Below, piece after piece: positions 11,314-60,340 of a DNA stretch of 64,000 bases. The notes under the pieces are model-generated. The model saw only the letters and a program-made list of their open reading frames with translations. It was not told the origin of the DNA and did not search any database. The position numbers and the translations under genes were made by a program. The DNA comes from a virus: positions 102,619-166,618 of the IMG/VR virus record IMGVR_UViG_3300027985_000872, one strand, 5' to 3'. Numbering within the stretch: the first letter of the stretch is position 1; each line of letters starts with the position of its first letter.

Positions 11314-12807
11314 TTATTTCTTCTTTTTAACCACTTTTGCTTTTAAGTCATTTAAGAAGTTTTGTTTATCGTAATTATTCCATTCTTGTCCAAAAACAAT
11401 ACGTATTCTTCCGTTTGGCTCTATAATGACCTGTGGTTTTGACATATACATATATTCATTATTGTAGACTGTTTCTGGATTAGCTGGATTAGCTGAATAA
11501 GCCTCTACTACTTCTGGTTCACGGCTCATCGATTCAACTTTATTTTGCAGTTCCAGTAATTTAGCTTCCAACATCTCTAATTCATTACCTGTATCATGAC
11601 ACAACTTATTATGTTGTGCAGCTATCTCATGACTAAATTGCTCTAACTTATCAAATAACTTAATTATTCGACCTTCGACTTCACTGATATCTATGGCATT
11701 ACCATGACGAATTTCAGTTCTCATGTTTTCCATCTCAGTATAAATATTAGCTAGGTTATGACGCTTATAATTATCTACTAGTTGATGTAATCCACCCTCT
11801 ATAGTATTATCTGATAAATGTTCTTCACTTAATACTTGTAGTTCAGGTTCATCTTCTGGCATATACCATTCAAAGACACTCATAATATCAGCGGTTAACA
11901 TAGGAAGTGATTTATGAGAGAATTGATGAATTACTTTTTGACCATCTGATACTCGACCTGAGTACATATCGTTGACATGTTTTCTAATACTTAATATGTA
12001 ACCATCAAGCTTAATATCTCTAAACTCTTCATCTTCCATATCAGATACAGCATCCCTAAGCATTCTGAAAGCACCATTGCCAATCAAACGCAACGCATCA
12101 CCATGACTTATATCAAATACGGCATCACGTCCATCAGGGCCTCTTAGTATATTTTTCTCTAATTTCTCTTTTGCTACTAAATATTTTAATGAACTTTTTT
12201 TGACCATACAGTGATGTGAGTTGAGATAAGCTTCAATACCCTTTAACGAGCAGTGACGTAGACGAGTGTCATCAATTAATATATGAGGTTCAATAAACTT
12301 CCAGTTCTTCATCTCTTTTGTGTTCTTAATCTTCCCCTTATAATCACGACATACGAATGTTTTGGAGTCATTCATCTGCGATCTAAAAGAGCCAACTTCA
12401 AACATCTCACCACACACGATTCCTGCTTCTTCTCTAGTTTCTCTATGTGCTGCCTCTTCAAAAGTTTCTCCCGGATCAACGTGTCCACCTGGTGTACCTA
12501 ATCTTCCACTTTCTGTACACTCTCCAACTAAGATTCTTCCTTTATTATCTACGACTATAACTCCAGCGCCCTGTCCACGATAAAATTGTTCAAAACTTTT
12601 TTTTACATCTTTTTTCTTCTTTTTCTTATCTTTTTTCCATGAACCTCCACGATCGTTGTTTTTGGATTCTGGTGCACCACTATCTGGTGCAGAATATTTA
12701 GCAGCAACACTCTTTGGTGGTCTACCACGAGCATGATCTTTTGACTCTTTACCATGAAGGATAGCCATCATCATTCTGTATTGACGTTTAGATGCAGCTT
12801 TTGGCAT
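11314..12807 (-). CDS. Virion-operon protein with embedded Nudix hydrolase domain
   Basis: About 497 aa from the ATG at 12807, which has GGAG 7 nt upstream; the ATG at 12819 lacks a good site. The N-terminus (SKRQYRMMMAILHG, then RGRPPKSVAA) resembles a short block common in phage structural proteins. A Lys-rich linker follows. A complete Nudix box lies at residues 107-129 (GGHVDPGETFEEAAHRETRE then EAG), with all the Gly/Glu/Arg positions of GX5EX7REUXEEXGU. Nudix enzymes hydrolyse nucleoside diphosphate-X substrates. The C-terminal 250 residues are helical, with a coiled-coil stretch and no recognised fold. A Nudix enzyme fused into a structural-operon protein is unusual. Confidence 0.75.
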   Translation of the reverse strand: MPKAASKRQYRMMMAILHGKESKDHARGRPPKSVAAKYSAPDSGAPESKNNDRGGSWKKDKKKKKKDVKKSFEQFYRGQGAGVIVVDNKGRILVGECTESGRLGTPGGHVDPGETFEEAAHRETREEAGIVCGEMFEVGSFRSQMNDSKTFVCRDYKGKIKNTKEMKNWKFIEPHILIDDTRLRHCSLKGIEAYLNSHHCMVKKSSLKYLVAKEKLEKNILRGPDGRDAVFDISHGDALRLIGNGAFRMLRDAVSDMEDEEFRDIKLDGYILSIRKHVNDMYSGRVSDGQKVIHQFSHKSLPMLTADIMSVFEWYMPEDEPELQVLSEEHLSDNTIEGGLHQLVDNYKRHNLANIYTEMENMRTEIRHGNAIDISEVEGRIIKLFDKLEQFSHEIAAQHNKLCHDTGNELEMLEAKLLELQNKVESMSREPEVVEAYSANPANPETVYNNEYMYMSKPQVIIEPNGRIRIVFGQEWNNYDKQNFLNDLKAKVVKKKK

Positions 12808-12860
12808 ATAAATCTCCATTATTTTAAGTTGTACTCTTATATTGTATCAGTTATAACTAG

Positions 12861-13670
12861 TTAACTCTGTTCTTCTGCTTGCATAAGAAAATCTCTCTTA
12901 ACCAATACTTGCTGTGGAAGTCTTCTAGCTATTTTCTCACCTGTTGCAATATTATATTCTTGAGTAACCCTCATTTCATGCATTACATTTTGCACAGTAT
13001 ATACTGGATTCGTAGTATAAGTTATTGATATTACTTCACCAATATCATTTAATTCATCATATTGAGGTTCAATAAGCCAATGAATATCACCATCTGAAGT
13101 GATCTCATAATCAGTATCTTCTATATATTCATATAACGACCCATTTACAACTGCAGTCATGTAATCTATACAAACAATCGGGTATCTTAATCTAGTGATT
13201 TTATTAGTGCTTGATTTATATTCTATTAGGTCATTCAATCTAACTTCAAAATCAGGACAATAGAGTTGATCGAATGTGCTAAAGTCAGCCTGTTGACCAT
13301 TATTATATTCTGCTGGGAAAGTTATCACTGCTGTACCGATTTCCCACACTCCTTGAACTTCAAACATTTTCTCAAGTGAATTAGAAGTAAATGCACCCCA
13401 AATTTCTCTTTGATCTGACGTTCCGGGGAATGTATCGTGGTATATCATTTGAGAGTTATCACAAAAAGGACAGTCAGGTGTATGATTATTTTCATGTAAA
13501 CCCTTCATATTTGGACATGGAGCAGCCACTCTATGTATGAAGCGAATTCCTCTGTTATTTAATAGTTGATCCCAGGCAGCACCACGTATACTTGGATCAG
13601 CAATCTCATACGGCATAGGTGAAGGTGTCGATCTGCTGGATTTATTATATTGTTGACTAGGTTTCTTCAT
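12861..13670 (-). CDS. Neck/head-tail connector-type protein with Cys cluster
   Basis: A 269-aa protein and the first gene of the minus-strand virion block. It has a possible metal site in the N-terminal third: APCPN, then 14 residues later C-P-F-C. The rest is beta-rich with many acidic residues. TAAGGAG lies upstream of the ATG. The family is not recognised; position before the tail genes suggests a neck component. The promoter for the operon probably lies in the 13671-13756 divergent region. Confidence 0.55.
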   Translation of the reverse strand: MKKPSQQYNKSSRSTPSPMPYEIADPSIRGAAWDQLLNNRGIRFIHRVAAPCPNMKGLHENNHTPDCPFCDNSQMIYHDTFPGTSDQREIWGAFTSNSLEKMFEVQGVWEIGTAVITFPAEYNNGQQADFSTFDQLYCPDFEVRLNDLIEYKSSTNKITRLRYPIVCIDYMTAVVNGSLYEYIEDTDYEITSDGDIHWLIEPQYDELNDIGEVISITYTTNPVYTVQNVMHEMRVTQEYNIATGEKIARRLPQQVLVKRDFLMQAEEQS

Positions 13671-13697: not shown

Positions 13698-13744
13698 CCA
13701 AATTTCAACTTATCATTTATTTAACTATGATCTTTATTTATCGG

Positions 13745-13750
13745 TATAAT
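13745..13750 (+). promoter_or_regulatory. Extended -10 promoter for the plus-strand small-gene array
   Basis: The plus strand reads TCGGTATAATTA. Transcription should start near 13757, on top of the first ATG of the next frame, so the later ATG at 13817 is the better start. Confidence 0.55.
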
Positions 13751-13816
13751 TAGAATATGAATCAGAAAAATGATATAATACATAAAGAAGATGAATCAAC
13801 TCAAGGCGATGAAATC

Positions 13817-14128
13817 ATGACCTGTTCTTTATCAAAAAAAGCAATACTACAGAAAATCATTAAAGAGGAAGGAAGTTGCGAGTGGATAATTGATGAATAT
13901 TCTAATCAAGATATCTGCCACCTATGTCCTTTTAATACCTTAAAGAAAAAAGATAAATTTAATTTCTTCTGCTGTTATGAAGCCGTTAATGGTACAGCTC
14001 AACCAACAGAGGAAGAAGCAAATCGGAAATATAAAGAGACTGCTATACAACTATTAATAGATATGATAGTTGAAGAAGAAGTTTTAGGTAAAGATTCCGA
14101 AGACTTTGAGAGCGTATCGTATGAGTGA
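13817..14128 (+). CDS. B-type Cys-rich small protein
   Basis: A 103-aa protein if started at 13817 (AAGG about 10 nt upstream); an in-frame ATG at 13757 would add 20 residues but coincides with the predicted transcription start. It shows the B-type layout: a helix ending in E-E-G-S-C, then C-x2-C-P-F, then a paired C-C, then a long C-terminal helix. The cysteines suggest a small metal-binding or disulfide knuckle. It is the first gene of the plus-strand array and overlaps the next by 8 nt. Its tail has diverged from the usual ILLEE ending. Confidence 0.65.
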   Translation: MTCSLSKKAILQKIIKEEGSCEWIIDEYSNQDICHLCPFNTLKKKDKFNFFCCYEAVNGTAQPTEEEANRKYKETAIQLLIDMIVEEEVLGKDSEDFESVSYE

Positions 14129-14354
14129 AAAAGACATAGAGTTACTTGAAGAGATCGTTAATAAAAAAGGCGATTGTCTGAATAGACGCCTATGTGAGAG
14201 ATGTCCCTTTAGGCGTAAATGCTTACCAACTTTTCTAGATAGAACAACTAGAGTAACAAAAGCAGAACGCATGATTTTAGCATTAGAAACTATTACGAAC
14301 GCTATGTTGTTTGACGAGGATAGCGATGGTGAATATTTCGACAACAGAAGTTGA
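14121..14354 (+). CDS. B-type Cys-rich small protein
   Basis: A 77-aa protein from the ATG at 14121, inside the end of the preceding gene. The N-terminal pattern E-K-D-I-E-L-L-E-E-I-V, then G-D-C, is the B-type hallmark. C-E-R-C-P-F and a further C follow. The C-terminal helix ends in an acidic, diverged tail rather than ILLEE. It overlaps the first A-type microprotein by 29 nt. Confidence 0.7.
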   Translation: MSEKDIELLEEIVNKKGDCLNRRLCERCPFRRKCLPTFLDRTTRVTKAERMILALETITNAMLFDEDSDGEYFDNRS

Positions 14355-14466
14355 TCCTTGGGCGCCTCATGTTCAAGATATGTGGTTCACAATACAACTG
14401 CTATGTGTTCTTCATAAACTATGCCACATAGAAATGAAAAAACATGGGCCTATTAGTAAGTATTGA
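14326..14466 (+). CDS. A-type microprotein 1
   Basis: A 46-aa frame, the first of 28 tandem microproteins. The A-type core is W-F-T-I-Q-L-L-C-V-L-H-K-L: a short helix ending in K-L followed by a hydrophobic residue. Its start lies inside the upstream B-type gene and its end overlaps the next member by 23 nt. Function unknown. Confidence 0.6.
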   Translation: MVNISTTEVDPWAPHVQDMWFTIQLLCVLHKLCHIEMKKHGPISKY

Positions 14467-14662
14467 TTCTGTATCAGCACATCATATGTATAATATAATG
14501 CGTATACTGATTGTAATAGGTATATCCAACTACAGTAAAAACGATTCTTATTTTTTATCAGAAACATTTAAAATTCGACTCATAGACTTTATAACTACAC
14601 CAAGAGATGAATACTCCAAAGAATTCAGTTGGTATATTAAGTTTAGTAAAATAAATACATGA
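14444..14662 (+). CDS. A-type microprotein 2
   Basis: A 72-aa frame with a core M-Y-N-I-M-R-I-L-I-V-I-G-I, then an aromatic C-terminal half. An internal ATG at 14486 could be an alternative start. The stop overlaps the next start as ATGA. Confidence 0.6.
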   Translation: MGLLVSIDSVSAHHMYNIMRILIVIGISNYSKNDSYFLSETFKIRLIDFITTPRDEYSKEFSWYIKFSKINT

Positions 14663-14835
14663 CGTATTTAATCAATAAAGAAGATATACATATGTTCTTC
14701 AATGATCCGCGATATAGTTGCATTTGTAGATTAATGGATTTCTTATTATATCCACTCGATATCGTCGATGAGTCTTATATAGAGAATACTAGCATAAGAG
14801 ATTTCATAATGCGAGTAGATAACAATGATCTATAA
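14659..14835 (+). CDS. A-type microprotein 3
   Basis: A 58-aa frame coupled to the previous gene by a 4-nt ATGA overlap. Core I-C-R-L-M-D-F-L-L-Y-P-L-D-I, then R-D-F-I-M near the C-terminus, matching the family's C-terminal F-hydrophobic motif. Confidence 0.6.
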   Translation: MTYLINKEDIHMFFNDPRYSCICRLMDFLLYPLDIVDESYIENTSIRDFIMRVDNNDL

Positions 14836-15070
14836 TCCAAATTACTATCTTATAGATGATTTCATAGACATATTATGGCGCTTAAATATAGTTCATTGTA
14901 AATATACATATCACAATGAAGATCAAGAATTGATATGGATTGATGATAATATTTTTTATTTAAAAATTTTGGAATATTATGAAAGAATGGCAATACAGCA
15001 GAGAAAGAAAAAGAGTATCTTTTCAAGATTCGTTAAGAACGTGCAGGGAATTATGGCGCGTATTAGCTAA
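14825..15070 (+). CDS. A-type microprotein 4, extended
   Basis: An 81-aa frame. The N-terminal half has the family core D-D-F-I-D-I-L-W-R-L-N-I. A basic C-terminal extension (QQRKKKSIFSRF) overlaps the next gene by 92 nt, much more than usual. The extension may come from loss of an earlier stop. Confidence 0.5.
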   Translation: MIYNPNYYLIDDFIDILWRLNIVHCKYTYHNEDQELIWIDDNIFYLKILEYYERMAIQQRKKKSIFSRFVKNVQGIMARIS

Positions 15071-15245
15071 ATTAGAAGTCGGCTACGACTGGACACCATC
15101 TAGTTGGAATAATATACCTATACCCGTTGTTCCATTTGATGTGTGGATATATTTAAGCAGGTACACTCGTAGACATTGGTGGAGAGGTAATCAGTATAAT
15201 ATCCCAGATCGTATAATAGAAAAATTTTATAACGGAGAACTTTAA
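14979..15245 (+). CDS. A-type microprotein 5
   Basis: An 88-aa frame, Trp- and Arg-rich. Core C-R-E-L-W-R-V-L-A-K-L-E-V followed by a W, then V-W-I-Y-L near the C-terminal third. It is larger than typical members and shares 92 nt with the previous frame. Confidence 0.6.
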   Translation: MKEWQYSRERKRVSFQDSLRTCRELWRVLAKLEVGYDWTPSSWNNIPIPVVPFDVWIYLSRYTRRHWWRGNQYNIPDRIIEKFYNGEL

Positions 15246-15249
15246 TAAA

Positions 15250-15429
15250 ATGAAGTTTGAAGATCTAAGAGTAGTTAATATGGAAGGATTATTTGCTCTT
15301 GATAGTACTATTCAGTTATTTAGAACCCTATCAAGATTAAACTTATTTCCTATTGGGGCAACTCGCTTTACAAAACATTTTTTAAATTATGTGGTAAAAC
15401 ATGGACACGATAGATTATTTAGAGACTAA
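15250..15429 (+). CDS. A-type microprotein 6
   Basis: A 59-aa frame with core I-Q-L-F-R-T-L-S-R-L-N-L and the C-terminal K-H-F-L-N-Y-V-V-K-H-G motif, which recurs as VRKHG, VSRHG or .EWG in later members. It starts 4 nt after the previous stop and overlaps the next gene by 29 nt. Confidence 0.6.
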   Translation: MKFEDLRVVNMEGLFALDSTIQLFRTLSRLNLFPIGATRFTKHFLNYVVKHGHDRLFRD

Positions 15430-15613
15430 CAGTGATCTCACAGATAGCTTACTTAATTTAAGAATTAAAAGCACAATGAGAAAATTAGGTATATTACCTC
15501 ATAGGTTAACACTGGTAGAGATGCTTGAGGAAATGGATGTCGCGTGGCAGGGATGCGTATCACGGGGATTCACATTTAATAGAACAATAAAAATCGAGAG
15601 CAATAATGAATAG
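15401..15613 (+). CDS. A-type microprotein 7
   Basis: A 70-aa frame with core I-K-S-T-M-R-K-L-G-I-L-P. It overlaps both neighbours (29 nt and 8 nt). The C-terminal half is less conserved. Confidence 0.6.
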   Translation: MDTIDYLETNSDLTDSLLNLRIKSTMRKLGILPHRLTLVEMLEEMDVAWQGCVSRGFTFNRTIKIESNNE

Positions 15614-15779
15614 AAGATCACTTCTTTCACCACGATGGTGTCACACCAAAGACATGACATCGGCATGGAATTCCTGCATAATGTTATTAGATACTTTTAG
15701 ACTTCTAGATGTAGATACTGCACTTATTAATCCCAGCAAGATATACATATATAAATTTTGGGATGCCAATGCTGAGTGA
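15606..15779 (+). CDS. A-type microprotein 8
   Basis: A 57-aa frame with core C-I-M-L-L-D-T-F-R-L-L-D-V and C-terminal Y-I-Y-K-F-W. The start is embedded in the end of the previous gene. Confidence 0.6.
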   Translation: MNRRSLLSPRWCHTKDMTSAWNSCIMLLDTFRLLDVDTALINPSKIYIYKFWDANAE

Positions 15780-15996
15780 GTTTCAGATACAGATTATAAG
15801 AGAACAAATTAAATCTTGCGACGGTTTATATATCGGCGATAGACCACTTTGTTGTTTTTCACACTTATTAGGTGTATTACGTATTCTAGAAGTTGCCGCT
15901 CTTATCTTGTACTTTACCGATGTGATGGCCTTTGTTGATAGATATGCCGATAAGCCTCTTATCCCCGAAAAAAGCCCCCGGGGTAAAAAGAAGTAA
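15763..15996 (+). CDS. A-type microprotein 9
   Basis: A 77-aa frame with core F-S-H-L-L-G-V-L-R-I-L-E-V and M-A-F-V-D-R-Y in the C-terminal half, ending in a basic PRGKKK tail. It overlaps the preceding gene by 17 nt. Confidence 0.6.
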   Translation: MPMLSEFQIQIIREQIKSCDGLYIGDRPLCCFSHLLGVLRILEVAALILYFTDVMAFVDRYADKPLIPEKSPRGKKK

Positions 15997-16010
15997 AAAA
16001 AGAAGTAACC

Positions 16011-16289
16011 ATGAGATCAGTAGCCAGCAAAAACTATAACATAGCAATAAGATTATTCTTAACGTGTGATCTGTTAGATCTAATGCCCGAGTCATGGACT
16101 AACCTAGACGTTGGTGACTACTGTGCCATAGCTTTCAAAGATCATCCATATCAGACTCAATACGTTAAATCGTACAACAGCGTATTTGATCTGATATATA
16201 GCATGAATAAATTAGATATAAGTCTATCAAGTTGCTCATTATTTTACCTATGGAAATTTACGAAGAACCACTGGAGCTATCATGAGTAA
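16011..16289 (+). CDS. A-type microprotein 10, possibly a duplicated core
   Basis: A 92-aa frame that appears to hold two family cores: I-R-L-F-L-T-C-D-L-L-D-L-M near the start and F-D-L-I-Y-S-M-N-K-L-D-I in the second half. It may be a fusion of two adjacent members. It overlaps the next gene by 8 nt. Confidence 0.55.
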   Translation: MRSVASKNYNIAIRLFLTCDLLDLMPESWTNLDVGDYCAIAFKDHPYQTQYVKSYNSVFDLIYSMNKLDISLSSCSLFYLWKFTKNHWSYHE

Positions 16290-16491
16290 CACCACTCCTC
16301 ACGCTAATAAAGTCGATACCTCAAACGTCTATCTAACCTTATTTCTCATGAACATGTTCGACACTATGGCCAAACTAGGTTTGTGCGACGAATGGATGGA
16401 TATCATACTATTCATGCGAATGATAGGTCGATACAGAAAACTTGGACTAGTCTATGACCAACCCAGTAAACAGATAGCTTTTGTAGAATAA
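16282..16491 (+). CDS. A-type microprotein 11
   Basis: A 69-aa frame with core L-M-N-M-F-D-T-M-A-K-L-G-L followed by E-W-M. It overlaps the upstream member by 8 nt and is separated from the next by 16 nt containing a GGAGG ribosome binding site. Confidence 0.6.
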   Translation: MSNTTPHANKVDTSNVYLTLFLMNMFDTMAKLGLCDEWMDIILFMRMIGRYRKLGLVYDQPSKQIAFVE

Positions 16492-16507
16492 TAACACGGA
16501 GGTTATC

Positions 16508-16684
16508 ATGATCACGATCAGAGGCAGCTCGGTAAGATGGTACGACTCATGGTGTATATTAAGAAATCTGCACAGTATGTTGTGTAGACTCGACGTATAT
16601 ATCTACGTACAACCCGGTTATGTATACCGCTGGGATCCCGAGCTGGATACTGATCTGGACGACAGGGAGCACAATGAGAACTGA
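16508..16684 (+). CDS. A-type microprotein 12
   Basis: A 58-aa frame with GGAGG upstream of the ATG. Core W-C-I-L-R-N-L-H-S-M-L-C-R-L-D-V, then Y-R-W, and an acidic C-terminus. It overlaps the next gene by 11 nt. Confidence 0.65.
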   Translation: MITIRGSSVRWYDSWCILRNLHSMLCRLDVYIYVQPGYVYRWDPELDTDLDDREHNEN

Positions 16685-16784
16685 TGATCTAATGTTACAC
16701 ATGTTGAAGTTACTATATAGATTAGAGATTTTGAGTATCAATAACTTAAAGAATATGTGTTGCTGGAGTGAAGAGTGGCTCTAG
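16674..16784 (+). CDS. A-type microprotein 13 (minimal)
   Basis: Only 36 aa, close to the minimal unit: L-M-L-H-M-L-K-L-L-Y-R-L-E-I, then C-C-W-S-E-E-W-L. It overlaps the previous gene by 11 nt and the next GTG start by 10 nt. Confidence 0.55.
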   Translation: MRTDDLMLHMLKLLYRLEILSINNLKNMCCWSEEWL

Positions 16785-16888
16785 TAGATCTATTGAATCA
16801 ACTAACCGAAGAGAAAATACAAGCACTCTGTATAAGATACAAGATGTTTCAGATGCTGGAACGACTGAGGGTAAACGTATGGAGATAA
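16775..16888 (+). CDS. A-type microprotein 14 (GTG start)
   Basis: A 37-aa frame starting at GTG 16775 with GGAG 7 nt upstream. Core I-R-Y-K-M-F-Q-M-L-E-R-L-R-V followed by W. It overlaps the next ATG by 10 nt. A longer frame across the same DNA (from 16768) lacks family features in this stretch and is treated as a shadow. Confidence 0.5.
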   Translation: MALVDLLNQLTEEKIQALCIRYKMFQMLERLRVNVWR

Positions 16889-17046
16889 ACTACCATAGAT
16901 ATCTAGAAAACACATACGTGCTGATGAGAATGCTGTGGAAGTTCGGCATAAACAGCGATGCTATATACTCGTGGGACAACATACCAATGGCCTCAGTCAG
17001 ACTGTACGAGTACGTGGACGAGTGGGGAGAATACTATGATCGATAA
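16879..17046 (+). CDS. A-type microprotein 15
   Basis: A 55-aa frame with a clear family layout: Y-V-L-M-R-M-L-W-K-F-G-I, W-D-N-I-P in the middle, and V-D-E-W-G near the end. I choose the ATG at 16879, which overlaps the previous stop, rather than the upstream ATG at 16768. Confidence 0.65.
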   Translation: MEINYHRYLENTYVLMRMLWKFGINSDAIYSWDNIPMASVRLYEYVDEWGEYYDR

Positions 17047-17218
17047 TCAGTACAAGTCTCTTGAAACAGCAGAGATCATGAAAGTCTACGCGATACTCAT
17101 GACTCTGCGTAAGTTGGAGATATACAGCTGGACGTTCAGTTTAGTAGACGCTCTCAAAGAGAGAAATAAGATCTACGACTTCATTAAAGTGTGGGGGTGG
17201 GATGGAATCGCATATTGA
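17036..17218 (+). CDS. A-type microprotein 16
   Basis: A 60-aa frame with core V-Y-A-I-L-M-T-L-R-K-L-E-I, then W, then Y-D-F-I-K-V-W-G-W. It is one of the best matches to the family pattern. The start at 17036 overlaps the previous gene by 11 nt. Confidence 0.65.
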   Translation: MIDNQYKSLETAEIMKVYAILMTLRKLEIYSWTFSLVDALKERNKIYDFIKVWGWDGIAY

Positions 17219-17342
17219 TAGAAGAGTAAAGACGATCAAGTCCTTCAGGTGGCTTACCATGACATTAGAGAAACTCGGCGTGATGAACTACATGGGATTA
17301 TTGGCCTGCAAGGGATACATGGATAGGCACTATGACATATGA
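17202..17342 (+). CDS. A-type microprotein 17
   Basis: A 46-aa frame with core F-R-W-L-T-M-T-L-E-K-L-G-V. It overlaps both neighbours (17 and 11 nt). Confidence 0.6.
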   Translation: MESHIDRRVKTIKSFRWLTMTLEKLGVMNYMGLLACKGYMDRHYDI

Positions 17343-17502
17343 TTACATGGTAAACTGCATATGCGATATTTTTAAACTGCTGCGACTGATGGGCGTGCCG
17401 ACGGATTACTGGATATGGAATGATGGCGTGGAAACCGTGATAGAGGTATATATCACCGACGTCTACGATTTTATAGATGCGTGGGGTGGTGATGGCGACT
17501 AA
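17332..17502 (+). CDS. A-type microprotein 18
   Basis: A 56-aa frame with core C-D-I-F-K-L-L-R-L-M-G-V, then W-I-W-N, and Y-D-F-I-D-A-W-G near the C-terminus. It is clearly paralogous to members 15 and 16. Confidence 0.65.
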   Translation: MTYDYMVNCICDIFKLLRLMGVPTDYWIWNDGVETVIEVYITDVYDFIDAWGGDGD

Positions 17503-17632
17503 CCCTGTTGTTAATAGAATGTTGAACATAATAAACATAATGTTCATGATGGAAAGGCTATGCAACTGCGACTATCCTGGATTTCGTAGCTGCAGAGATT
17601 ATGCAATGAGGTGGTACGATGAACTCAAATAG
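17492..17632 (+). CDS. A-type microprotein 19
   Basis: A 46-aa frame with core I-I-N-I-M-F-M-M-E-R-L-C-N and C-terminal D-Y-A-M-R-W-Y. The start overlaps the previous gene by 11 nt. Confidence 0.6.
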   Translation: MATNPVVNRMLNIINIMFMMERLCNCDYPGFRSCRDYAMRWYDELK

Positions 17633-17641
17633 AGATAATCA

Positions 17642-17824
17642 ATGATTCTTGCAGCTACGATGTTCGACAGTGACGACTATAAGGCAATAGATAGATTGAT
17701 AACGATGTTGATCAAATTAGATGTGGTTAAGTGGGATTGGGATTACGGTCTACTTGAACCGTGGGAATACGTGCTCAGATGGGGAACAGTGGAGAAGCAA
17801 GAGATTATTTTAGAGCAATTATGA
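17642..17824 (+). CDS. A-type microprotein 20
   Basis: A 60-aa frame with core D-R-L-I-T-M-L-I-K-L-D-V, W-D-W, and W-E-Y-V-L-R-W-G. The stop overlaps the next start as ATGA. Confidence 0.65.
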   Translation: MILAATMFDSDDYKAIDRLITMLIKLDVVKWDWDYGLLEPWEYVLRWGTVEKQEIILEQL

Positions 17825-17964
17825 GAGCAGTATATGTAAACGGACGTGGAACAACGATGTACGAGGATGACGTGATCGAGCACATGATGTGGACAGTGAT
17901 GAAACTGGGATTAGCAGGGACCGAGTGGTGGCTAATGTACCCGATGGCGTACGACGATGAATAG
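17821..17964 (+). CDS. A-type microprotein 21
   Basis: A 47-aa frame from the ATG at 17821, in ATGA overlap with the previous gene. Core I-E-H-M-M-W-T-V-M-K-L-G-L followed by E-W-W. Confidence 0.6.
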   Translation: MRAVYVNGRGTTMYEDDVIEHMMWTVMKLGLAGTEWWLMYPMAYDDE

Positions 17965-18118
17965 CATAGAGAAAGTCATTGATAGCGGGAGTTACAGGAG
18001 TTTGATTGCATTTGTTATGGCGCTGCTGCATCTGGGTATTATCGATATGCATTATGCGGTTAGTATGGCAGACATGGATTTTGTGGTGAACTACGGGTTG
18101 GGAGACACGAGTGAGTAG
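17957..18118 (+). CDS. A-type microprotein 22
   Basis: A 53-aa frame with core L-I-A-F-V-M-A-L-L-H-L-G-I and C-terminal M-D-F-V-V-N-Y-G. It overlaps the previous member by 8 nt and the next by 8 nt. Confidence 0.6.
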   Translation: MNSIEKVIDSGSYRSLIAFVMALLHLGIIDMHYAVSMADMDFVVNYGLGDTSE

Positions 18119-18254
18119 GAAGAATCTGGTGATGATGTATTTCGATATATGGGTGATGATGGATAAGTTGGACATAGCATCTGGGTATTTTAGGAAAAGT
18201 AAGTTGTACATGTATGATTATTACGTGCGAGAGTGGGCGGCTGACGATGATTGA
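18111..18254 (+). CDS. A-type microprotein 23 (GTG start)
   Basis: A 47-aa frame from GTG at 18111. Core Y-F-D-I-W-V-M-M-D-K-L-D-I, then Y-Y-V-R-E-W. The 8-nt overlaps on both sides match neighbouring junctions, which supports the GTG start. Confidence 0.6.
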   Translation: MSRKNLVMMYFDIWVMMDKLDIASGYFRKSKLYMYDYYVREWAADDD

Positions 18255-18396
18255 TGAAAACTCGATTTTTAAAAGTCGTAGTTATAGGGTGCTCGACGCA
18301 ATGATGTTGATGATGTACAGGTTGTACATAGTTGATACTAGATGGTATCTTGATACGTATTCTATGTATTTTGTTAGGCGGTGGGGAAATGAGTGA
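18247..18396 (+). CDS. A-type microprotein 24
   Basis: A 49-aa frame with core M-M-L-M-M-Y-R-L-Y-I, then R-W-Y, and M-Y-F-V-R-R-W-G. The overlap on each side is 8 nt. Confidence 0.65.
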   Translation: MIDENSIFKSRSYRVLDAMMLMMYRLYIVDTRWYLDTYSMYFVRRWGNE

Positions 18397-18550
18397 GGAT
18401 GGTTCATATGTGGTGCTCAAGTTGGTGTGGATGTTAAGCTATTTAGAAATAATTAAGAAGCGCAAGATACAGAAGAGAGCAGGATATTATTATGCGCCGG
18501 GTATTAGTCCGATAGCTGTTATGAGATTTGTGAGAAAGCATGGAAAATAA
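18389..18550 (+). CDS. A-type microprotein 25
   Basis: A 53-aa frame with core L-K-L-V-W-M-L-S-Y-L-E-I, a G-Y-Y-Y-A-P-G-I turn, and M-R-F-V-R-K-H-G. The turn recurs in members 26 and 28. Confidence 0.65.
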   Translation: MSEDGSYVVLKLVWMLSYLEIIKKRKIQKRAGYYYAPGISPIAVMRFVRKHGK

Positions 18551-18689
18551 GGGCAGAGATACAGTGTTTGATTTGGTGTGGACGTTGCATAGGTTGAATA
18601 TAGGGACTGTAAGATGGGTAGAAGCAGGATATTGTTTGCCGAGTATTACGGTTGATATATTGAGAGCATTTGTGAGCAGACATGGGTAG
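18540..18689 (+). CDS. A-type microprotein 26
   Basis: A 49-aa frame, close paralog of member 25: F-D-L-V-W-T-L-H-R-L-N-I, A-G-Y-C-L-P-S-I, and R-A-F-V-S-R-H-G. Confidence 0.65.
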   Translation: MENKGRDTVFDLVWTLHRLNIGTVRWVEAGYCLPSITVDILRAFVSRHG

Positions 18690-18840
18690 TGAGAAAGTTG
18701 ATTCTATTTGGGTGATGATCAAGATGTTGAGTAAGTTGGACTTGGATATGAGTGAGTGGTTCAGTTATCATTGGAATCTCGGTGAATTTGCATCTAGTAA
18801 GTTTTGGAGTTTTGTGAGGAAGATAGATGTGTGCGATTAG
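18682..18840 (+). CDS. A-type microprotein 27
   Basis: A 52-aa frame with core W-V-M-I-K-M-L-S-K-L-D-L followed by W, then W-S-F-V-R-K. It overlaps the previous gene by 8 nt and the next by 14 nt. Confidence 0.65.
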   Translation: MGSEKVDSIWVMIKMLSKLDLDMSEWFSYHWNLGEFASSKFWSFVRKIDVCD

Positions 18841-18988
18841 AAGCGAAGATATAGCATATGAATTGGTGAGAATTCTATGGATGTTAGATATCGATGATAG
18901 ATATTGGGTGAGTCAAAGTGGATATTATGTAGGACATATTCCTACTAGTGTTATAGTAGAGTTCGCTAATAAATATAAAATCAAATAG
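18827..18988 (+). CDS. A-type microprotein 28 (last of first array)
   Basis: A 53-aa frame with core Y-E-L-V-R-I-L-W-M-L-D-I, then Y-W, G-Y-Y-V-G-H-I-P, and V-E-F-A-N-K-Y. It ends the uninterrupted array; the next 230 nt hold no gene. Confidence 0.6.
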   Translation: MCAIRSEDIAYELVRILWMLDIDDRYWVSQSGYYVGHIPTSVIVEFANKYKIK

Positions 18989-19127: not shown

Positions 19128-19137
19128 ACCGACTCGA
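19128..19137 (+). promoter_or_regulatory. ACCGACTCGA element
   Basis: A variant of the recurring element, in the leader of the 19218 peptide, followed 40 nt later by a second copy. Confidence 0.55.
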
Positions 19138-20262: not shown

Positions 20263-20709
20263 ATGATGAATCAAAAGACAGCAGTGTATGAGGCAATTAA
20301 GTCAGTAAGAAGTTTTGAAGATGGTGACAAAGTCGAACTCACCAAAGACGAGAAGGCGACGGTCAGAGGTATCTTAGTGACGGGCTTTGAAGAGAACAAG
20401 ATCGAGCTCAAGTCTGCTCAAGACGACATCGGTAAGTATGTCAATGGACTACTCAACAACTGGTTGCGCAAGGACACTCGTCTGAATGGTAACGTGGTGT
20501 ACGAGATCAAGAACAAGGGGAGTCGTACAGGTCAACAAGACCCATTGATCAAGAACTTGAGACTACTCAAGAAGAAAGACGGGTTAAGTGAGACCGACAT
20601 CGCAGACATCGACGCAGCAATCGCGAAGAGAATCGCAGAGATCAGACCTGAGAAGGCAGTCGAGATCGATGCCTCAGTTCTGCCAGAAGAATTCCAGCAC
20701 TTAGTGTAA
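20263..20709 (+). CDS. Four-copy paralog family, copy 1 (highly expressed type)
   Basis: A 149-aa protein from ATG 20263 (or 20266), with AAGGGGG upstream. Predicted mostly helical and charged. Landmarks shared with the genes at 36420, 41599 and 58357: an early K-x-A-V-Y-x-A helix, L-T-K-D-x-K, a central Y-V-N-x-L-L-N-N-W-L-R-K-D block, N-K-G-S-R-T-G-Q, and a C-terminal P-E-x-x-H-L. The codons (AAG, ATC, AAC) and three stacked promoter-like elements suggest strong expression. A basic, abundant, paralogous protein might be a nucleoid-type or RNA-binding factor, but no family is recognised. Confidence 0.75.
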   Translation: MMNQKTAVYEAIKSVRSFEDGDKVELTKDEKATVRGILVTGFEENKIELKSAQDDIGKYVNGLLNNWLRKDTRLNGNVVYEIKNKGSRTGQQDPLIKNLRLLKKKDGLSETDIADIDAAIAKRIAEIRPEKAVEIDASVLPEEFQHLV

Positions 20710-23407: not shown

Positions 23408-23445
23408 GTGAGAGATCAATTAGAGAAAAAAGATGTGGAATATAG
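23404..23445 (+). pseudogene. Remnant 5' end of an A-type gene (13 codons)
   Basis: ATG at 23404 opens a 13-codon frame (MSERSIREKRCGI) that stops inside the next A-type gene. Its sequence resembles the N-terminus of the 27925 gene (N-T-E-R-D-L before M-W). A frameshift appears to have separated it from the core that starts at 23433. Confidence 0.45.
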
Positions 23446-23549
23446 TATACGATCTTCGTATGATGCTCAGTAAGATGGGAGTAATGGAAGCAACCTTTAT
23501 ATGGATGAACATATACGACTACATAGACAGGGTAATGAAAGATGAGTGA
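23433..23549 (+). CDS. A-type microprotein, probably N-terminally truncated
   Basis: A 38-aa frame: M-W-N-I-V-Y-D-L-R-M-M-L-S-K-M-G-V, then Y-D-Y-I-D-R-V. Very close to the C-terminal part of the 27925 gene (M-W-D-I-V-Y-N-L-H-I-M-L-L-K-M-D). It overlaps the next gene by 8 nt. Confidence 0.55.
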   Translation: MWNIVYDLRMMLSKMGVMEATFIWMNIYDYIDRVMKDE

Positions 23550-23883
23550 GCAGTGGGTCCACAATGTTGGCATAAGGTACAAGCGCAGAGCACTTATGAT
23601 ATATTTGTATGTAGGTGACGAATGTGCCTCTGTATTGGACTGCGATGTTGTTAAGCATCAGATATCCTCTGGAGATAGCTCTGATATTGAGCTTATATGC
23701 GCGTGTATAGGAAGGATTAGGAAGATATTGTATAGACTTGAGATAGATCAGAATGATTATTCGTCTAATGCACTTATTAAACCAGTGTTGAAGAGATTAT
23801 TTAATAATTATGAGTGGGATAAAACTGGTCTTAATATAGATACAGGAAGTTATTACTTATTATGGGAATGGTTGGATATATGA
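23542..23883 (+). CDS. C-type protein 2
   Basis: A 113-aa paralog of the 23063 gene: Q-W-V-H-N-V-x-I-R-Y near the start, a helix I-R-K-I-L-Y-R-L-E-I, L-K-R-L-F-N-N-Y-E-W, and L-L-W-E-W at the end. It overlaps both neighbours. Confidence 0.7.
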   Translation: MSEQWVHNVGIRYKRRALMIYLYVGDECASVLDCDVVKHQISSGDSSDIELICACIGRIRKILYRLEIDQNDYSSNALIKPVLKRLFNNYEWDKTGLNIDTGSYYLLWEWLDI

Positions 23884-24026
23884 TCAGTGAGGAGAAGAAA
23901 TTCGATATGTGGTCGACCACGAGGAGGTTATTGAAAACTCTCATTCGTTTAGGAGTAAATGCCTCTCATCTTTACATGTATTCCTATGTAGAGAGGGTAA
24001 TAAAGAATAGCGATAGCATAGATTAG
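23880..24026 (+). CDS. A-type microprotein
   Basis: A 48-aa frame in ATGA overlap with the C-type gene. D-M-W-S-T-T-R-R-L-L-K-T-L-I-R-L-G-V, then Y-S-Y-V-E-R-V. Confidence 0.6.
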   Translation: MISEEKKFDMWSTTRRLLKTLIRLGVNASHLYMYSYVERVIKNSDSID

Positions 24027-25875: not shown

Positions 25876-26022
25876 ATGCGGTTTATGAATAATTATACGG
25901 CTATTTTTGAACTACAGTACATATTGTATCGTCTTGGTGTAATGCGTGGTACATGTTGCGGCGGTCAATGGACTAAAGACTATGCGAGACGATATGGAGC
26001 AAAAATTGAAACTCAAAAGTGA
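25876..26022 (+). CDS. A-type microprotein
   Basis: A 48-aa frame with core I-F-E-L-Q-Y-I-L-Y-R-L-G-V, then D-Y-A-R-R-Y-G-A. The D-Y-A-R-R-Y motif recurs at 60188 and loosely at 40356. Confidence 0.6.
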   Translation: MRFMNNYTAIFELQYILYRLGVMRGTCCGGQWTKDYARRYGAKIETQK

Positions 26023-26358: not shown

Positions 26359-26580
26359 ATGAAGAAAGCTAATGAATTGACAACAGAAGATATTGAGATT
26401 TTAAATAATATAGTAGAAAATGGAGGAAACTGTCATACACCAAAAGACCTATCATGTGCCAATTGTCCTGTGTTTGTAAAGGGTAGTTTATGTTATCGAA
26501 AAGGAATAAAAGAGCGCGCTTTATACCTATTAAGAGAATACAATAAATATATTGATTCTATTTTATTGGAGCAAGAATGA
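26359..26580 (+). CDS. B-type Cys-rich protein
   Basis: A 73-aa typical member: L-T-T-E-D-I-E-I-L-N-N-I, G-G-N-C, S-C-A-N-C-P, lone C, then the tail Y-I-D-S-I-L-L-E-Q-E. The TTGGAGCAAG in its last codons serves the next gene (ATGA overlap). Confidence 0.75.
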   Translation: MKKANELTTEDIEILNNIVENGGNCHTPKDLSCANCPVFVKGSLCYRKGIKERALYLLREYNKYIDSILLEQE

Positions 26581-26927
26581 CAGATGAGCGATACGTACAG
26601 CATGTTATATTAACACGAGATAGCGGTAGACTCAATGTTTGTTTATTAATTGGCCATAAAGATGCAAATATGTCCTGTCTTAAGTCTACCAGATATATTT
26701 TGAAAGAAGATGATAGACTTCTAGCTGAAGCTAGAGTACCTTCTCTTAGAAGACTAATGATTGTGTTTTCTAGATTAGGCATAGAGGATTTTACTAAGTA
26801 TTATAGTCAGGTATATTCAAAAGTATTAAAAAGTTTATTTCCAGATCATAATTGGAAAGAAGATTTTAAGATGAGCACGTCAAACGCAGTGCAATTCGTT
26901 TATTGGATAGAAAGAGTCACTAAATGA
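26577..26927 (+). CDS. C-type protein 5
   Basis: A 116-aa paralog: Y-V-Q-H-V-I-L near the start, E-D-D-R-L-L-A, helix L-R-R-L-M-I-V-F-S-R-L-G-I, L-K-S-L-F-P-D-H-N-W, and F-V-Y-W at the end. Confidence 0.7.
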   Translation: MTDERYVQHVILTRDSGRLNVCLLIGHKDANMSCLKSTRYILKEDDRLLAEARVPSLRRLMIVFSRLGIEDFTKYYSQVYSKVLKSLFPDHNWKEDFKMSTSNAVQFVYWIERVTK

Positions 26928-27094: not shown

Positions 27095-27364
27095 ATGAGC
27101 ATGAAACTACCAGACGGATTTAAGAATATAAACGATGTTGCAACCACGGTTAGCAAAGCCAGAGAATCATTGGATTATAGAAATGGGTACACATGCGATA
27201 TACTTAACCCAACTCAAATTGGTGGAAACGATTGCGATCAATGTATAGTAACCACACTACTTCCTCCTAATTCATGTGACACTAGTAGTTTTAGTAAACT
27301 TCTTGATATGCTACAAGAAGTAATTGCTGAGTATATTTTATTGGAGCAACATGAAGATAATTAA
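27095..27364 (+). CDS. B-type Cys-rich protein (NPxQxG..CDQC subtype)
   Basis: An 89-aa paralog of the 21533 gene: C-D-I-L-N-P-T-Q-I-G, D-C-D-Q-C, lone C, and tail I-A-E-Y-I-L-L-E-Q. The TTGGAGC codons are the ribosome binding site for the ATG at 27351, in another frame. Confidence 0.75.
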   Translation: MSMKLPDGFKNINDVATTVSKARESLDYRNGYTCDILNPTQIGGNDCDQCIVTTLLPPNSCDTSSFSKLLDMLQEVIAEYILLEQHEDN

Positions 27365-27542
27365 GAACACATTTGATATCATAGCTATAGTTATCATGCT
27401 GATACTACCTGGTTTTGTTGCACTAGGTATACTCCATATTATAGATACCATTGAAAATAAAAGAAGACGTAAACTAGAGAAAGACTATTATATAGTATGC
27501 GATATATTACATGTATGTAATAAATTAGGAATAGGTAGCTAA
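27351..27542 (+). CDS. Membrane-anchored A-type protein
   Basis: A 63-aa frame from ATG 27351 (GGAG 5 nt upstream, inside the B-type gene). Membrane helix I-I-A-I-V-I-M-L-I-L-P-G-F-V-A-L, basic K-R-R-R-K linker, then V-C-D-I-L-H-V-C-N-K-L-G-I. Confidence 0.6.
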   Translation: MKIIKNTFDIIAIVIMLILPGFVALGILHIIDTIENKRRRKLEKDYYIVCDILHVCNKLGIGS

Positions 27543-27924: not shown

Positions 27925-28077
27925 ATGAGACTCGATATAAGTAATACAGAAAGAGATTTGATGTGGGATATAGTGTACAATCTTCATATTATGCTTCTTA
28001 AGATGGATATAGATGACGGAACTAATTATGGTATGAATTACTTTGATTACATAGATAGACTCGCAGACAATAATTAA
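27925..28077 (+). CDS. A-type microprotein
   Basis: A 50-aa frame: D-L-M-W-D-I-V-Y-N-L-H-I-M-L-L-K-M-D-I, then F-D-Y-I-D-R-L. Reference member for the M-W subtype. It ends just before an ACCGATTCGA element. Confidence 0.6.
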   Translation: MRLDISNTERDLMWDIVYNLHIMLLKMDIDDGTNYGMNYFDYIDRLADNN

Positions 28078-31421: not shown

Positions 31422-31653
31422 TGGATCTTACTAAAAAAAAGAGATTGAACTTATATTTCATATACATGATAACCCCGATATGTCTGATGCGGATATATGT
31501 ATGGCGCTGACACCTATTGATATTGATATATGCGACAATCAATGTCCTACATATAGATACAATGCCAATACACGGTGTTCGTGTCGTAGCACACTCAATG
31601 AAATTATCGCTACTATCATAAATCAAGCAGAAGACATTCTATTGGAGGAATGA
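31421..31653 (+). pseudogene. B-type gene with a frameshift in an A8 run
   Basis: The ATG at 31421 enters an A8 run at 31433-31440 and in zero frame stops after 29 codons. A -1 shift at the A run restores a full B-type protein of about 77 residues: K-E-I-E-L-I-F-H-I, C-D-N-Q-C-P, C-S-C, and tail E-D-I-L-L-E-E. Either it is broken by an extra A, or the A-A-A-A-A-A-A-G tract is a programmed or transcriptional slippage site. Everything downstream is intact, including the ribosome binding site for the next gene. Confidence 0.65.
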
Positions 31654-31889
31654 TGGATGTGACTAATAAAGAATACGAAGGTTTAATGAGATGTAAAGAG
31701 AATCTAAAAAATAAAGATCAGATGAATATATGTTGTGGATTGGTATATAATTATCCCTGTACAGATAGTTGTGTGCTTCATAAGTATGATCCAATGGAAG
31801 ATTGCACTGTGGAGAATATACTATCTAGAATAAATGGATTACTTACAGAGCTAGATGCGCGCGTAAGTAATATTCTGTTGGAGGAATGA
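31650..31889 (+). CDS. B-type Cys-rich protein
   Basis: A 79-aa member: K-E-Y-E-G-L-M-R-C-K-E-N, C-C-G-L, C-T-D-S-C-V, lone C, tail S-N-I-L-L-E-E. Of the two adjacent ATGs (31650, 31653) either could be used. GGAGG for the next gene is in its last codons. Confidence 0.7.
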   Translation: MMDVTNKEYEGLMRCKENLKNKDQMNICCGLVYNYPCTDSCVLHKYDPMEDCTVENILSRINGLLTELDARVSNILLEE

Positions 31890-33449: not shown

Positions 33450-33667
33450 GTAAAGTAACAGAATTAACTAACGAACATATTGCTTTTTTAAAAAATATTG
33501 TTAAATACGGTGGTATGTGTAGTAAGGATTTTTGTCGCGAGTGTACCCCTTTATGTCCTATATTCGACTGTGGATGTACACGAAGTAGTGCTTTTCATAG
33601 GGCAACATATATGTTAAAAAAACATGATGAATATATAGATAGTTTACTATTGGAGAACAATGACTGA
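33446..33667 (+). CDS. B-type Cys-rich protein
   Basis: A 73-aa member: L-T-N-E-H-I-A-F-L-K-N-I-V, G-M-C, F-C-R-E-C-T-P-L-C-P (extra Cys), C-G-C, tail Y-I-D-S-L-L-L-E-N-N-D. It has the most cysteines in the family. Confidence 0.75.
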   Translation: MSKVTELTNEHIAFLKNIVKYGGMCSKDFCRECTPLCPIFDCGCTRSSAFHRATYMLKKHDEYIDSLLLENND

Positions 33668-33848
33668 TTTTCAGATTAAAACTAAGAAAACATATGTTAT
33701 CAGAGATGTATTACGCACGATGTGTAAACTTGACATACTTCCTAAAAGTTATTCCACTCATTCACATACTAATTTAGATTTATCAGTAGTAACTTTTTAT
33801 GTAACATATACTACTGAACAATATTGTTTGGAAATCAATCATGAGTAA
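33660..33848 (+). CDS. A-type microprotein
   Basis: A 62-aa frame with core Y-V-I-R-D-V-L-R-T-M-C-K-L-D-I-L-P and a Thr/Tyr-rich C-terminal half. Overlaps of 8 nt on each side. Confidence 0.6.
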   Translation: MTDFQIKTKKTYVIRDVLRTMCKLDILPKSYSTHSHTNLDLSVVTFYVTYTTEQYCLEINHE

Positions 33849-45105: not shown

Positions 45106-45457
45106 TGAAACGCCGTTTCATAAGTCAACACAGTCTAGAACCATACTAGATAAATGGTTTGACGGGTGGGACGTCGAGTTTACATTCACTAATGTATCGA
45201 GCACACCGACAGATAACAACAGGCCACTGCGGGTCTCCGAGATAAGAGATAATCTTCCTGCTCTGCGTGAGACAATAGATTCTCACAGAGATCATAAAAT
45301 AGTTACACTTGGAAAGACTGCTGAGCGCGCACTTAACATGCTTGAACTAGATTTCTTCGCCGCACCTCACCCGTCAGGATGTAATCGTCAGTTGAACGAT
45401 CAAGAGTTTGTAGCTGATATGCTATGCAAGTTAAGAAAATATTTAAGTGGGGAATAA
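45059..45457 (+). CDS. Uracil-DNA-glycosylase-superfamily-like protein (GTG start)
   Basis: A 132-aa protein. V-L-I-I-G-S-N-P-S at the start matches the UDG-fold 'G-x-N-P' loop, and A-A-P-H-P-S-G-C-N-R near residue 102 matches the His-Pro-Ser DNA-contact loop. A central V-T-L-G-K-T-A fits the strand-turn between them. Members remove uracil or other bases, but small phage versions can have other roles. It is short for the family and the substrate cannot be told. Confidence 0.65.
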   Translation: MKVLIIGSNPSQKSPDETPFHKSTQSRTILDKWFDGWDVEFTFTNVSSTPTDNNRPLRVSEIRDNLPALRETIDSHRDHKIVTLGKTAERALNMLELDFFAAPHPSGCNRQLNDQEFVADMLCKLRKYLSGE

Positions 45458-45648
45458 TGTATTCTTTTGTGAGAGGTGTAGCTTTTATATTTTATGCTAT
45501 GTATTGTATTTTTACAAACGACATGCAGAGTCTATACAACGTTTCTATCAAGAAATATAAAAGCAGAGTGGTATTATTCAACACCTTAACTAAGTTAGAG
45601 ATCATAGAAGAAGAGATCACATATGAGCCATATGGGGGCCCAAGGTGA
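45457..45648 (+). CDS. Membrane-anchored A-type protein
   Basis: A 63-aa frame from ATG 45457 (GGGG upstream, TAATG junction). Membrane helix V-A-F-I-F-Y-A-M-Y-C-I-F, then R-V-V-L-F-N-T-L-T-K-L-E-I. Confidence 0.6.
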   Translation: MYSFVRGVAFIFYAMYCIFTNDMQSLYNVSIKKYKSRVVLFNTLTKLEIIEEEITYEPYGGPR

Positions 45649-45863
45649 GAAGCATATTAGATACCATACTAATGCTACTAGATATAGTTAGATATGTATT
45701 GTGTATTGATGATGATAACGATTACAGTACACGTGCATTAGATCGCTTAAAGACCAAATTAAACAGTAGAAGAGTGTTATTTAAAACCCTAGTTAAACTA
45801 GAAGTCATAAAAAACACTAAGTTTAATAAGTTGATAACAACCCGAAGAAGACCGCCAAAATAA
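45645..45863 (+). CDS. A-type protein, tandem duplicate (GTG start)
   Basis: A 72-aa frame: hydrophobic first third (I-L-M-L-L-D-I-V), then R-R-V-L-F-K-T-L-V-K-L-E-V-I. Nearly the same core as its neighbour, so a tandem duplication. Confidence 0.6.
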   Translation: MRSILDTILMLLDIVRYVLCIDDDNDYSTRALDRLKTKLNSRRVLFKTLVKLEVIKNTKFNKLITTRRRPPK

Positions 45864-59816: not shown

Positions 59817-60198
59817 GAAAGATTATGTGCCATCAAGCTTACGCGATATCGTAGAAGAGTATTTACCGAATGAAATACTAACAATGAGATATGTTGATTA
59901 TAGAATCATATACGATTACGACATATGGTCAACTATGGTAGATAAGTTATCTGATAAGCTACTAGATGAGATACTATCATACGAGCAAGGTGGTAACTGG
60001 AATAAGATGATGTATAGGGTGTGCTTAGAAGAGCGCGCTAGACGCATGTATGATATGCCTAAAGAAGCTGTTGCATCTGTAGGCGAAGTGTTATCCTTGG
60101 TAAATAAATTATTGAGAGAAACAAACTGTTACATGTACGAAGCAGAAAATGTAGAGGAATATATTGATCTTTATAAACGGTGCGTGTATGACAACTAG
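59809..60198 (+). CDS. Hypothetical helical protein
   Basis: A 129-aa protein, mostly helical and Tyr-rich (R-Y-V-D-Y-R-I-I-Y-D-Y). No family recognised. It overlaps both neighbours. Confidence 0.6.
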   Translation: MSKKDYVPSSLRDIVEEYLPNEILTMRYVDYRIIYDYDIWSTMVDKLSDKLLDEILSYEQGGNWNKMMYRVCLEERARRMYDMPKEAVASVGEVLSLVNKLLRETNCYMYEAENVEEYIDLYKRCVYDN

Positions 60199-60340
60199 AA
60201 CTAGAGAAGATTACACGACAGCGTCAGCAAGTTTCTTTAATCTAAGGACAATGATGTGTAAGTTAATAATAGATAAGAAAAACATAATGCTCGTGTATTC
60301 TATGAAGTACGGCGATTATGCGAGAAGATTTTTTAGATAA
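60188..60340 (+). CDS. A-type microprotein
   Basis: A 50-aa frame: F-N-L-R-T-M-M-C-K-L-I-I, then G-D-Y-A-R-R-F. Converges on the second ClpP-like gene with an 8-nt overlap. Confidence 0.55.
   Translation: MTTRTREDYTTASASFFNLRTMMCKLIIDKKNIMLVYSMKYGDYARRFFR

Follow-up and report, generated by a model that had tools for sequence, protein, structure and literature searches.

The window analysed here, a 64,000-nucleotide (nt) stretch of DNA, covers bases 102619-166618 of the virus record IMGVR_UViG_3300027985_000872, which has 166,618 bases in all. Between positions 14326 and 18988 the + strand of the window contains an array of small overlapping genes. The best chain of open reading frames (ORFs) of at least 36 codons across this interval consisted of 28 ORFs of 36-92 amino acids (aa) covering 98.8% of the sequence, the same continuous set of frames described by the original prediction, which had been made from the letters alone. 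Overlaps were found at 22 junctions and the largest gap was 16 nt. The opposite strand of the same interval gave 14 ORFs and 51% coverage, and 200 first-order Markov shuffles gave a mean of 9 ORFs and 27% coverage, with six overlapping junctions at most and a largest gap that was always at least 401 nt. This comparison rules out a set of ORFs open by chance. The overlaps of 4-29 nt that had been predicted hold for most junctions (mostly 4, 8, 10, 11, 14, 17, 23 or 29 nt), but at four others the frames are separated by 4-16 nt and at one they overlap by as much as 92 nt. Codon usage was uninformative, being only weakly phage-like, with the own frame scoring best in 13 of the 28 ORFs. Codon usage alone is no proof of coding, and the case was built on the tiling, on motifs at the protein level and on related phages. 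Genes this small would largely be missed by standard annotation.

A single family of microproteins

A hidden Markov model (HMM) was built from the array frames and iterated over all the six-frame ORFs of the record. It recovered 26 array frames with E-values from 2e-5 to 2e-16. A de novo search found a core motif, hxxLxxhLx[KR]Lx[IV], with a z of ~19 against shuffles, and the same search found no such motif on the opposite strand. A separate de novo search detected a C-terminal motif after the core, [YM]-x-[FY]-[VI]-x-[RK]-[WHY]-G (z 16-20). The two motifs are linked, and both are kept in most of the array members, so that the iterated model and the two significant motifs bear out the earlier claim of one shared family, and the paralogous expansion read into the array proved right. 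The expansion is not a recent amplification, because the paralogues are mostly only 12-36% identical (median 17%) and no similarity at the DNA level, and hence no recent copies, could be found among the array members.

The operon is headed by a promoter-like site, TTAACT-18-TATAAT (13721..13750, + strand, matching the consensus at 10/12 positions), followed on the same strand by two Cys-rich genes of a different family, named CxxCP below. The first (13757..14128, with a likelier start at 13817; HMM E 2.5e-13) has an orthologue at the same place in related phages, and the second (14121..14354; HMM E 2.6e-19) is 52% identical to its orthologue in the relative L010. The array itself, all on the + strand, opens with gene 1 (14326..14466, 46 aa), a weak member whose phmmer match (E 7e-4) is to the gene that opens the array in the relative L058. 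With E-values from the family HMM, it continues with gene 2 (14444..14662, 72 aa, 3e-15), gene 3 (14659..14835, 58 aa, 8e-11), gene 4 (14825..15070, 81 aa, 6e-14) and gene 5 (14979..15245, 88 aa, 9e-9), these last two sharing the 92-nt overlap. After gene 6 (15250..15429, 59 aa, 8e-8) come gene 7 (15401..15613, 70 aa, 3e-7), gene 8 (15606..15779, 57 aa, 3e-7), gene 9 (15763..15996, 77 aa, 6e-8) and gene 10 (16011..16289, 92 aa, 2e-16), in which the core is found twice and two domains are recognised. Gene 11 (16282..16491, 69 aa, 5e-11) precedes gene 12 (16508..16684, 58 aa, 5e-12), which has the best Shine-Dalgarno sequence of the array. Two very short genes follow, gene 13 (16674..16784, 36 aa), where the core is present by alignment, and gene 14 (16775..16888, 37 aa, GTG start), the weakest member (E 0.013).

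The second half consists of gene 15 (16879..17046, 55 aa, 4e-14), gene 16 (17036..17218, 60 aa, 2e-12), gene 17 (17202..17342, 46 aa, 8e-9), gene 18 (17332..17502, 56 aa, 1e-12), gene 19 (17492..17632, 46 aa, 1e-9), gene 20 (17642..17824, 60 aa, 3e-15), gene 21 (17821..17964, 47 aa, 2e-5), gene 22 (17957..18118, 53 aa, 6e-12), gene 23 (18111..18254, 47 aa, 2e-8, with a GTG start), gene 24 (18247..18396, 49 aa, 2e-12), gene 25 (18389..18550, 53 aa, 1e-10), gene 26 (18540..18689, 49 aa, 3e-12), gene 27 (18682..18840, 52 aa, 3e-12) and gene 28 (18827..18988, 53 aa, 6e-12).

By the established rules of helix capping, the core can be read as a helix of amphipathic character, whose C-terminal turn is basic and is closed by a D/G/E plus I/V cap. 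An AlphaFold2 model of gene 20, calculated with a 33-member alignment, was all-helical, with a predicted local distance difference test (pLDDT) score of 82 and a predicted template modelling (pTM) score of 0.49. The architecture of the family is best explained as a helical-hairpin scaffold, in which a variable loop connects a capped amphipathic helix to a short second helix.

Regarding translation, a match of at least 4 nt to the Shine-Dalgarno sequence was found at 34% of the array starts, against 59% of the other genes and 21% of all the ATGs in the array; in the tiling used for this count 86% of the array starts overlapped the previous gene. Furthermore, in genes 6, 25 and 26 the His-Gly codons of the tail motif (CATGG) hold the ATG of the next gene, that is, of genes 7, 26 and 27. 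The overlaps, the scarcity of Shine-Dalgarno sequences and the starts placed inside the last codons of the preceding gene suggest that the array is probably translated by stop-start coupling from one long message.

The two leading genes belong to a second paralogous family, CxxCP, with 26 members of 57-128 aa at HMM E<0.01 between 13757 and 46979 of the window (other examples are at 22188, 24850, 29685, 31653, 31889 and 44377). These proteins could possibly bind a metal or an Fe-S cluster; against known families only sub-threshold matches to WhiB were obtained. The family has a conserved C-terminus, ILLE(E/N/Q)E, encoded as TTGGAG(GAA)..., at the place where the Shine-Dalgarno sequence of the next gene would be expected (for example at 31642-31653, 31878-31889 and 26569-26580). 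In these endings Leu is TTG in 9/18 cases (140/1134 elsewhere) and Glu is GAG in 10/10 (347/820 elsewhere), and the end of the protein may thus double as a ribosome-binding site. Another sequence, the 9-mer ACCGA(C/T)TCG, is intergenic, found only on the + strand and usually placed a short distance ahead of a start codon, in many cases preceded by TAA or CATA. It is present in the window at 19128, 19177, 19908, 20117, 20170, 20216, 21498, 28083, 29262, 30908, 36367, 41564, 46033, 58886 and 60970 and at five more sites elsewhere in the record, and its near-matches in the window amount to 21 against 4.5 expected. A role of this element in regulation or RNA processing in the phage is probable.

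Reuse of the core outside the array

The original prediction counted about 27 more members elsewhere in the window, which is too many, since both the HMM and a matrix of the core put the number at about 9-11. At E<0.01 the HMM found nine beyond the array, at 23.0, 23.4, 23.8, 25.9, 27.9, 33.6, 45.4, 45.6 and 60.2 kb. With the core matrix, 11/144 genes scored at p<=0.01 where ~1.4 were expected, and 3/181 did so on the opposite strand. The record as a whole (166.6 kb) holds a few further members, at 12-19 kb.

The core was found in at least three kinds of proteins, those given here with both coordinates being encoded on the + strand. Detached microproteins are those at 23433..23549 (E 2e-11, core p 0.0025, with a YDYIDR tail after the core), 23862..24026 (E 2e-9), 25876..26022 (E 2e-9), 27925..28077 (E 1e-9, core p 0.0025), 33660..33848 (E 1e-7, core p 0.0025) and 60188..60340 (E 6e-8, core p 0.0075). 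A second kind has a hydrophobic N-terminal segment, with the core at the end in 27351..27542 (core p 0.01) and near the C-terminus in 45457..45648 (E 4e-5, core p 0.0025) and 45645..45863 (E 3e-5, core p 0.0075); similar proteins were recognised by eye starting at 25346, 26174, 26924 and 33841. The third kind is a group of paralogues of 103-122 aa with a beta part (MSxQxVHxVxI), the core in the middle and a VLKxLFxxYxW segment. The one at 26577..26927 was identified by alignment (core p 0.005), and six others start at 23063, 23542, 24368, 25510, 27545 and 34008. Between 23063 and 28077 free microproteins consisting of the core, as well as CxxCP genes, are interspersed among these larger genes, the seventh paralogue being the one at 34008. 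The model of the 23542 protein (pTM 0.70) showed a beta hairpin plus helices. No significant fold match was obtained for it; many weak matches to a glucokinase/ParM-type fold had a template modelling (TM) score of only ~0.3 and were set aside. The alignment of this group was too variable to serve as a search query.

Aside from these proteins, the window codes for a duplicated repeat protein, YxxGSIxYEAYxLNDK (39270-39518 and 59652-59816), with the common ending LADLEIERMLDE. Both genes overlap by 8 nt a next gene whose product starts with MSKKD.

The locus in related phages

The left part of the window carries on the - strand the structural genes of a contractile-tail phage, including the sheath (7463-9682) and a portal-like protein with a Nudix hydrolase-like N-terminal domain (11314-12819). 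The gene adjoining the array operon is a distant homologue of SPO1 gp6.4 (12861-13670). Rightward of 13757 almost all the genes are on the + strand and the majority are small. The nearest named relatives of the sheath are those of Myxococcus phage Mx1 and of SPO1-like Bacillus phages, and sheaths with 38-73% identity are encoded in many uncultured contigs. Judging by sequence relationships, the phage belongs to a large clade of SPO1-like myoviruses that are uncultured. The host is only weakly indicated, by two relatives placed in bins of Saprospiraceae and Cytophagales. Mx1, a cultured relative, has 31% identity in the sheath and 25% in the gene adjoining the array. A NUDIX hydrolase is annotated in its structural region too, and the annotated region around the Mx1 sheath holds no comparable array. 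Elsewhere in the window, at 50874-52664, there is an anaerobic ribonucleotide reductase of the phage NrdD-like type, at most 62% identical to proteins of Vibrio phages.

Throughout the clade the gene order is the sheath, other genes, the portal, the gp6.4-like gene, a divergent promoter region, one or two Cys-rich genes, a variable set of small genes and a gene similar to the one at 20263..20709 (+ strand), which closes the locus in the relatives in 1-3 copies and has no known family. Proteins of this last type (148-171 aa, YVxGLxNNWLRK...NPGSR) lie downstream of the array and were also seen in L018, L022, L030 and others. At the head of the array operon, the window has a -10-like element, (C/G)GTATAAT, which most of the nine inspected relatives share, and opposite to it, on the other strand and facing the structural genes, there is TGGTAWAAT. 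The promoter scan as a whole gave no more sites than were found in shuffles.

The closest relative with the locus is L058, on the same contig as L010, which has an 11-gene array and flanking structural proteins 68-74% identical. Its two Cys-rich neighbours are ~50% identical to those of the window, but between the two arrays there is no orthology beyond the family level, except perhaps for gene 1. Actually, a single profile built from the window array misses most relatives at E<0.003, and for this reason we turned to shuffle tests and to de novo motif searches, the latter with the array genes of the relatives chosen by position only. In this way a core of the same form was found de novo in L066 ('.LldTLkRLGL', z 22), in L103 ('L..L..LLrrLgV', z 7) and in L071 ('LfKTL.rfg', z 5.6), whereas in L058 the motif detected ('L.Lv.KW..K', z 3.8) resembles the tail motif of the window. 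In L077 a similar core emerged when more genes were included, but not from the set chosen by position only. In many other loci (e.g. L060, L062 and L083) the search gave no significant motif, and a paralogous array is therefore not claimed for every relative. In a shuffle test of the relatives the share at p<=0.05 was 19.5% on the array strand, but the opposite-strand control was also raised (12.6%), so we rely on the results per locus and on the de novo motifs. The copy number of the array at this same locus varies widely from phage to phage.

The original prediction had proposed a check for codon-level conservation in related phages, and such conservation was found in the arrays of the relatives of this phage. 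Array ORFs at the same place gave ratios of nonsynonymous to synonymous substitution rates (dN/dS) of 0.14, 0.22, 0.31 and 0.16 between L065 and L073 and of 0.08 and 0.16 between L091 and L116, values of ~0.08-0.31 that are approximate since dS is high in several pairs. The array genes of these relatives are under purifying selection. None of the tests open to us supports diversifying selection, which had been suggested from the size of the expansion, and the comparison of dN/dS among the paralogues is barred by saturation. The divergence sits between paralogues and in the gain and loss of members. One case is that of contigs L065 and L020, which hardly differ over most of 6 kb except for a deletion of 84 nt. 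It takes away the core from one array gene along with the start of the gene after it, although this could be an artefact of assembly. The purifying selection, the nearly lost orthology and this deletion indicate that the genes are real, individually dispensable and of fast turnover; that is, sequences are retained while present and the set changes quickly.

Possible roles of the array

No family common to the members was found in Pfam, PHROGs or NCBIfam, where the scattered sub-threshold hits were different for each member. PADLOC assigned none of 33 members to any family. By sequence, the best match in the PDB had an E of 0.2, below threshold, and Foldseek with the model of the array microprotein gave best E-values of 9.3 in PDB and 2.0 in BFVD.

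Among the known systems, one of the closest is the early host-takeover module of SPO1, with 26 mostly small genes that shut down host processes (PMC6873191). This module (genes 37-60) and the early clusters of Herelleviridae likewise consist of numerous genes, most of them small, in a lineage of myoviruses to which the phage is distantly related, the kinship resting on the sheath and gp6.4 homologues. However, the SPO1 genes are of unequal size, mostly lie apart from one another, are preceded by good ribosome-binding sites and are found on both strands, whereas the window array is an overlapping chain on one strand, made of one family and placed beside the structural genes, and its function can only be inferred. 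The array has in common with an SPO1-type module the block of small genes, but not homology to takeover proteins. Regarding expression signals, one promoter-like element, conserved in relatives, was seen at the operon head, and the Shine-Dalgarno sequences within the array are weak. In T4-like phages anti-defence genes are reported to be amplified in tandem, for example promoted by SegB (PMC13096335) or in the escape from toxIN (PMC9391042). These tandem counter-defence copies, an adaptive response, resemble the array but are recent, which the array is not. In the literature searched no precedent of a phage array of such kind was found; the idea of an early cluster of small genes is known, and its construction from a single hypervariable microprotein family is, within that literature, new.

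The takeover factors, decoys and assembly subunits proposed by the original prediction cannot be separated by sequence. The location after a conserved promoter element, the small size and dense packing of the genes, their fast turnover and the kinship with SPO1 make us favour host-directed effectors, and the presence of the core in other proteins keeps alive the idea of a shared partner or an assembly. The account we prefer, tentatively and with somewhat less than even confidence, is an early repertoire of effectors directed at the host, produced by coupled translation and built on one helical-hairpin scaffold. For it we infer early expression, coupled translation, host targets and an effector function. 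The array would be one polycistronic operon of early type producing ~28 minimal helical microproteins, all sharing the scaffold while their surfaces and ends vary freely. Each member, or each subset, would bind a different host protein, for host takeover and/or counter-defence, and the phage would keep the whole set while single members are gained, lost or replaced according to the hosts met. Several points weigh against such a repertoire. In the databases searched, neither a similarity to a known takeover or anti-defence family nor any fold match was obtained. No close relative of the window array was found by a DNA search of named phages or by searching viral contigs with a single array protein and a Cys-rich protein, so that the evidence of selection comes from the arrays of relatives. 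The core may be a generic, well-capped amphipathic helix, homology between clades being likely and not proved. Finally, its reuse on proteins with hydrophobic N-termini and beta domains fits also a shared binding partner in place of many targets.

This last point leads to a different explanation, in which the core helix docks or oligomerises and the microproteins, the proteins with hydrophobic N-termini and those with beta domains form a joint assembly, either among themselves or on a single complex of the host or the phage, the variable parts serving to tune it. The core appears in at least three contexts (free hairpins, hydrophobic N-termini and the 103-122 aa proteins), core and tail motif are conserved while tails and loops vary, and coupled translation would be expected to give an even stoichiometry. 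Yet the conserved core positions suit a stable capped helix that does not require a partner, and a defined machine of many subunits is not expected to vary in copy number at the same locus or to lose members between strains, for which we consider an assembly rather unlikely. Roles internal to the phage appear somewhat less likely still. The operon adjoins the structural module and diverges from it, and the leading Cys-rich genes could be regulators given their sub-threshold WhiB matches, which would suit structural accessories or small regulators acting on transcription, replication or the virion of the phage itself; but the turnover is fast relative to that of structural genes and there is no sequence tie to virion proteins.

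The high copy number, the median identity of 17% among paralogues and the turnover would also be understandable if the proteins saturated or misled a sensor or inhibitor of the host defence, so that only number and diversity count. However, purifying selection on the orthologues of close relatives implies that the individual sequences matter, and PADLOC detected no resemblance to known defence proteins; decoys or antigenic variation are thus improbable. Least credible of all, and largely refuted, is that these are drifting duplicates with hardly any function or the debris of a long repetitive protein broken by frameshifts. The lack of DNA-level similarity and of recent copies and the weakly phage-like codon usage would be compatible with decay, but all 28 frames are open and overlapping with their start codons in place, most members keep both motifs, and similar arrays occupy the same place in several phages, with open frames and dN/dS far below 1. 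The frameshift origin was rejected on these dN/dS values and on the tiling.

A broader and doubtful extension of the host-directed repertoire, which we consider possible and no better than that, is a modular combinatorial arsenal based on one helical module, used in free hairpins, in proteins with a hydrophobic anchor and with a beta domain, arranged in ultra-dense coupled arrays and with its membership reshuffled between phages. By analogy, such an arsenal might resemble the effector or surface-antigen repertoires of pathogens; for phages, the literature searched contained no repertoire of microproteins sharing a single fold.

If the preferred account of host-directed effectors is true, phages would maintain fast-turning repertoires of microproteins of a single family, largely invisible to annotation, beside a conserved promoter. 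As synteny is enough to recognise the locus (portal, SPO1 gp6.4-like gene, divergent promoter, two Cys-rich genes and array), dozens more arrays could be mined without sequence similarity. They would represent a ready natural library of mini-binders to be screened against host and defence proteins, and a test case for how effector repertoires of phages grow and turn over and for the stop-start coupled translation of nearly 30 genes.

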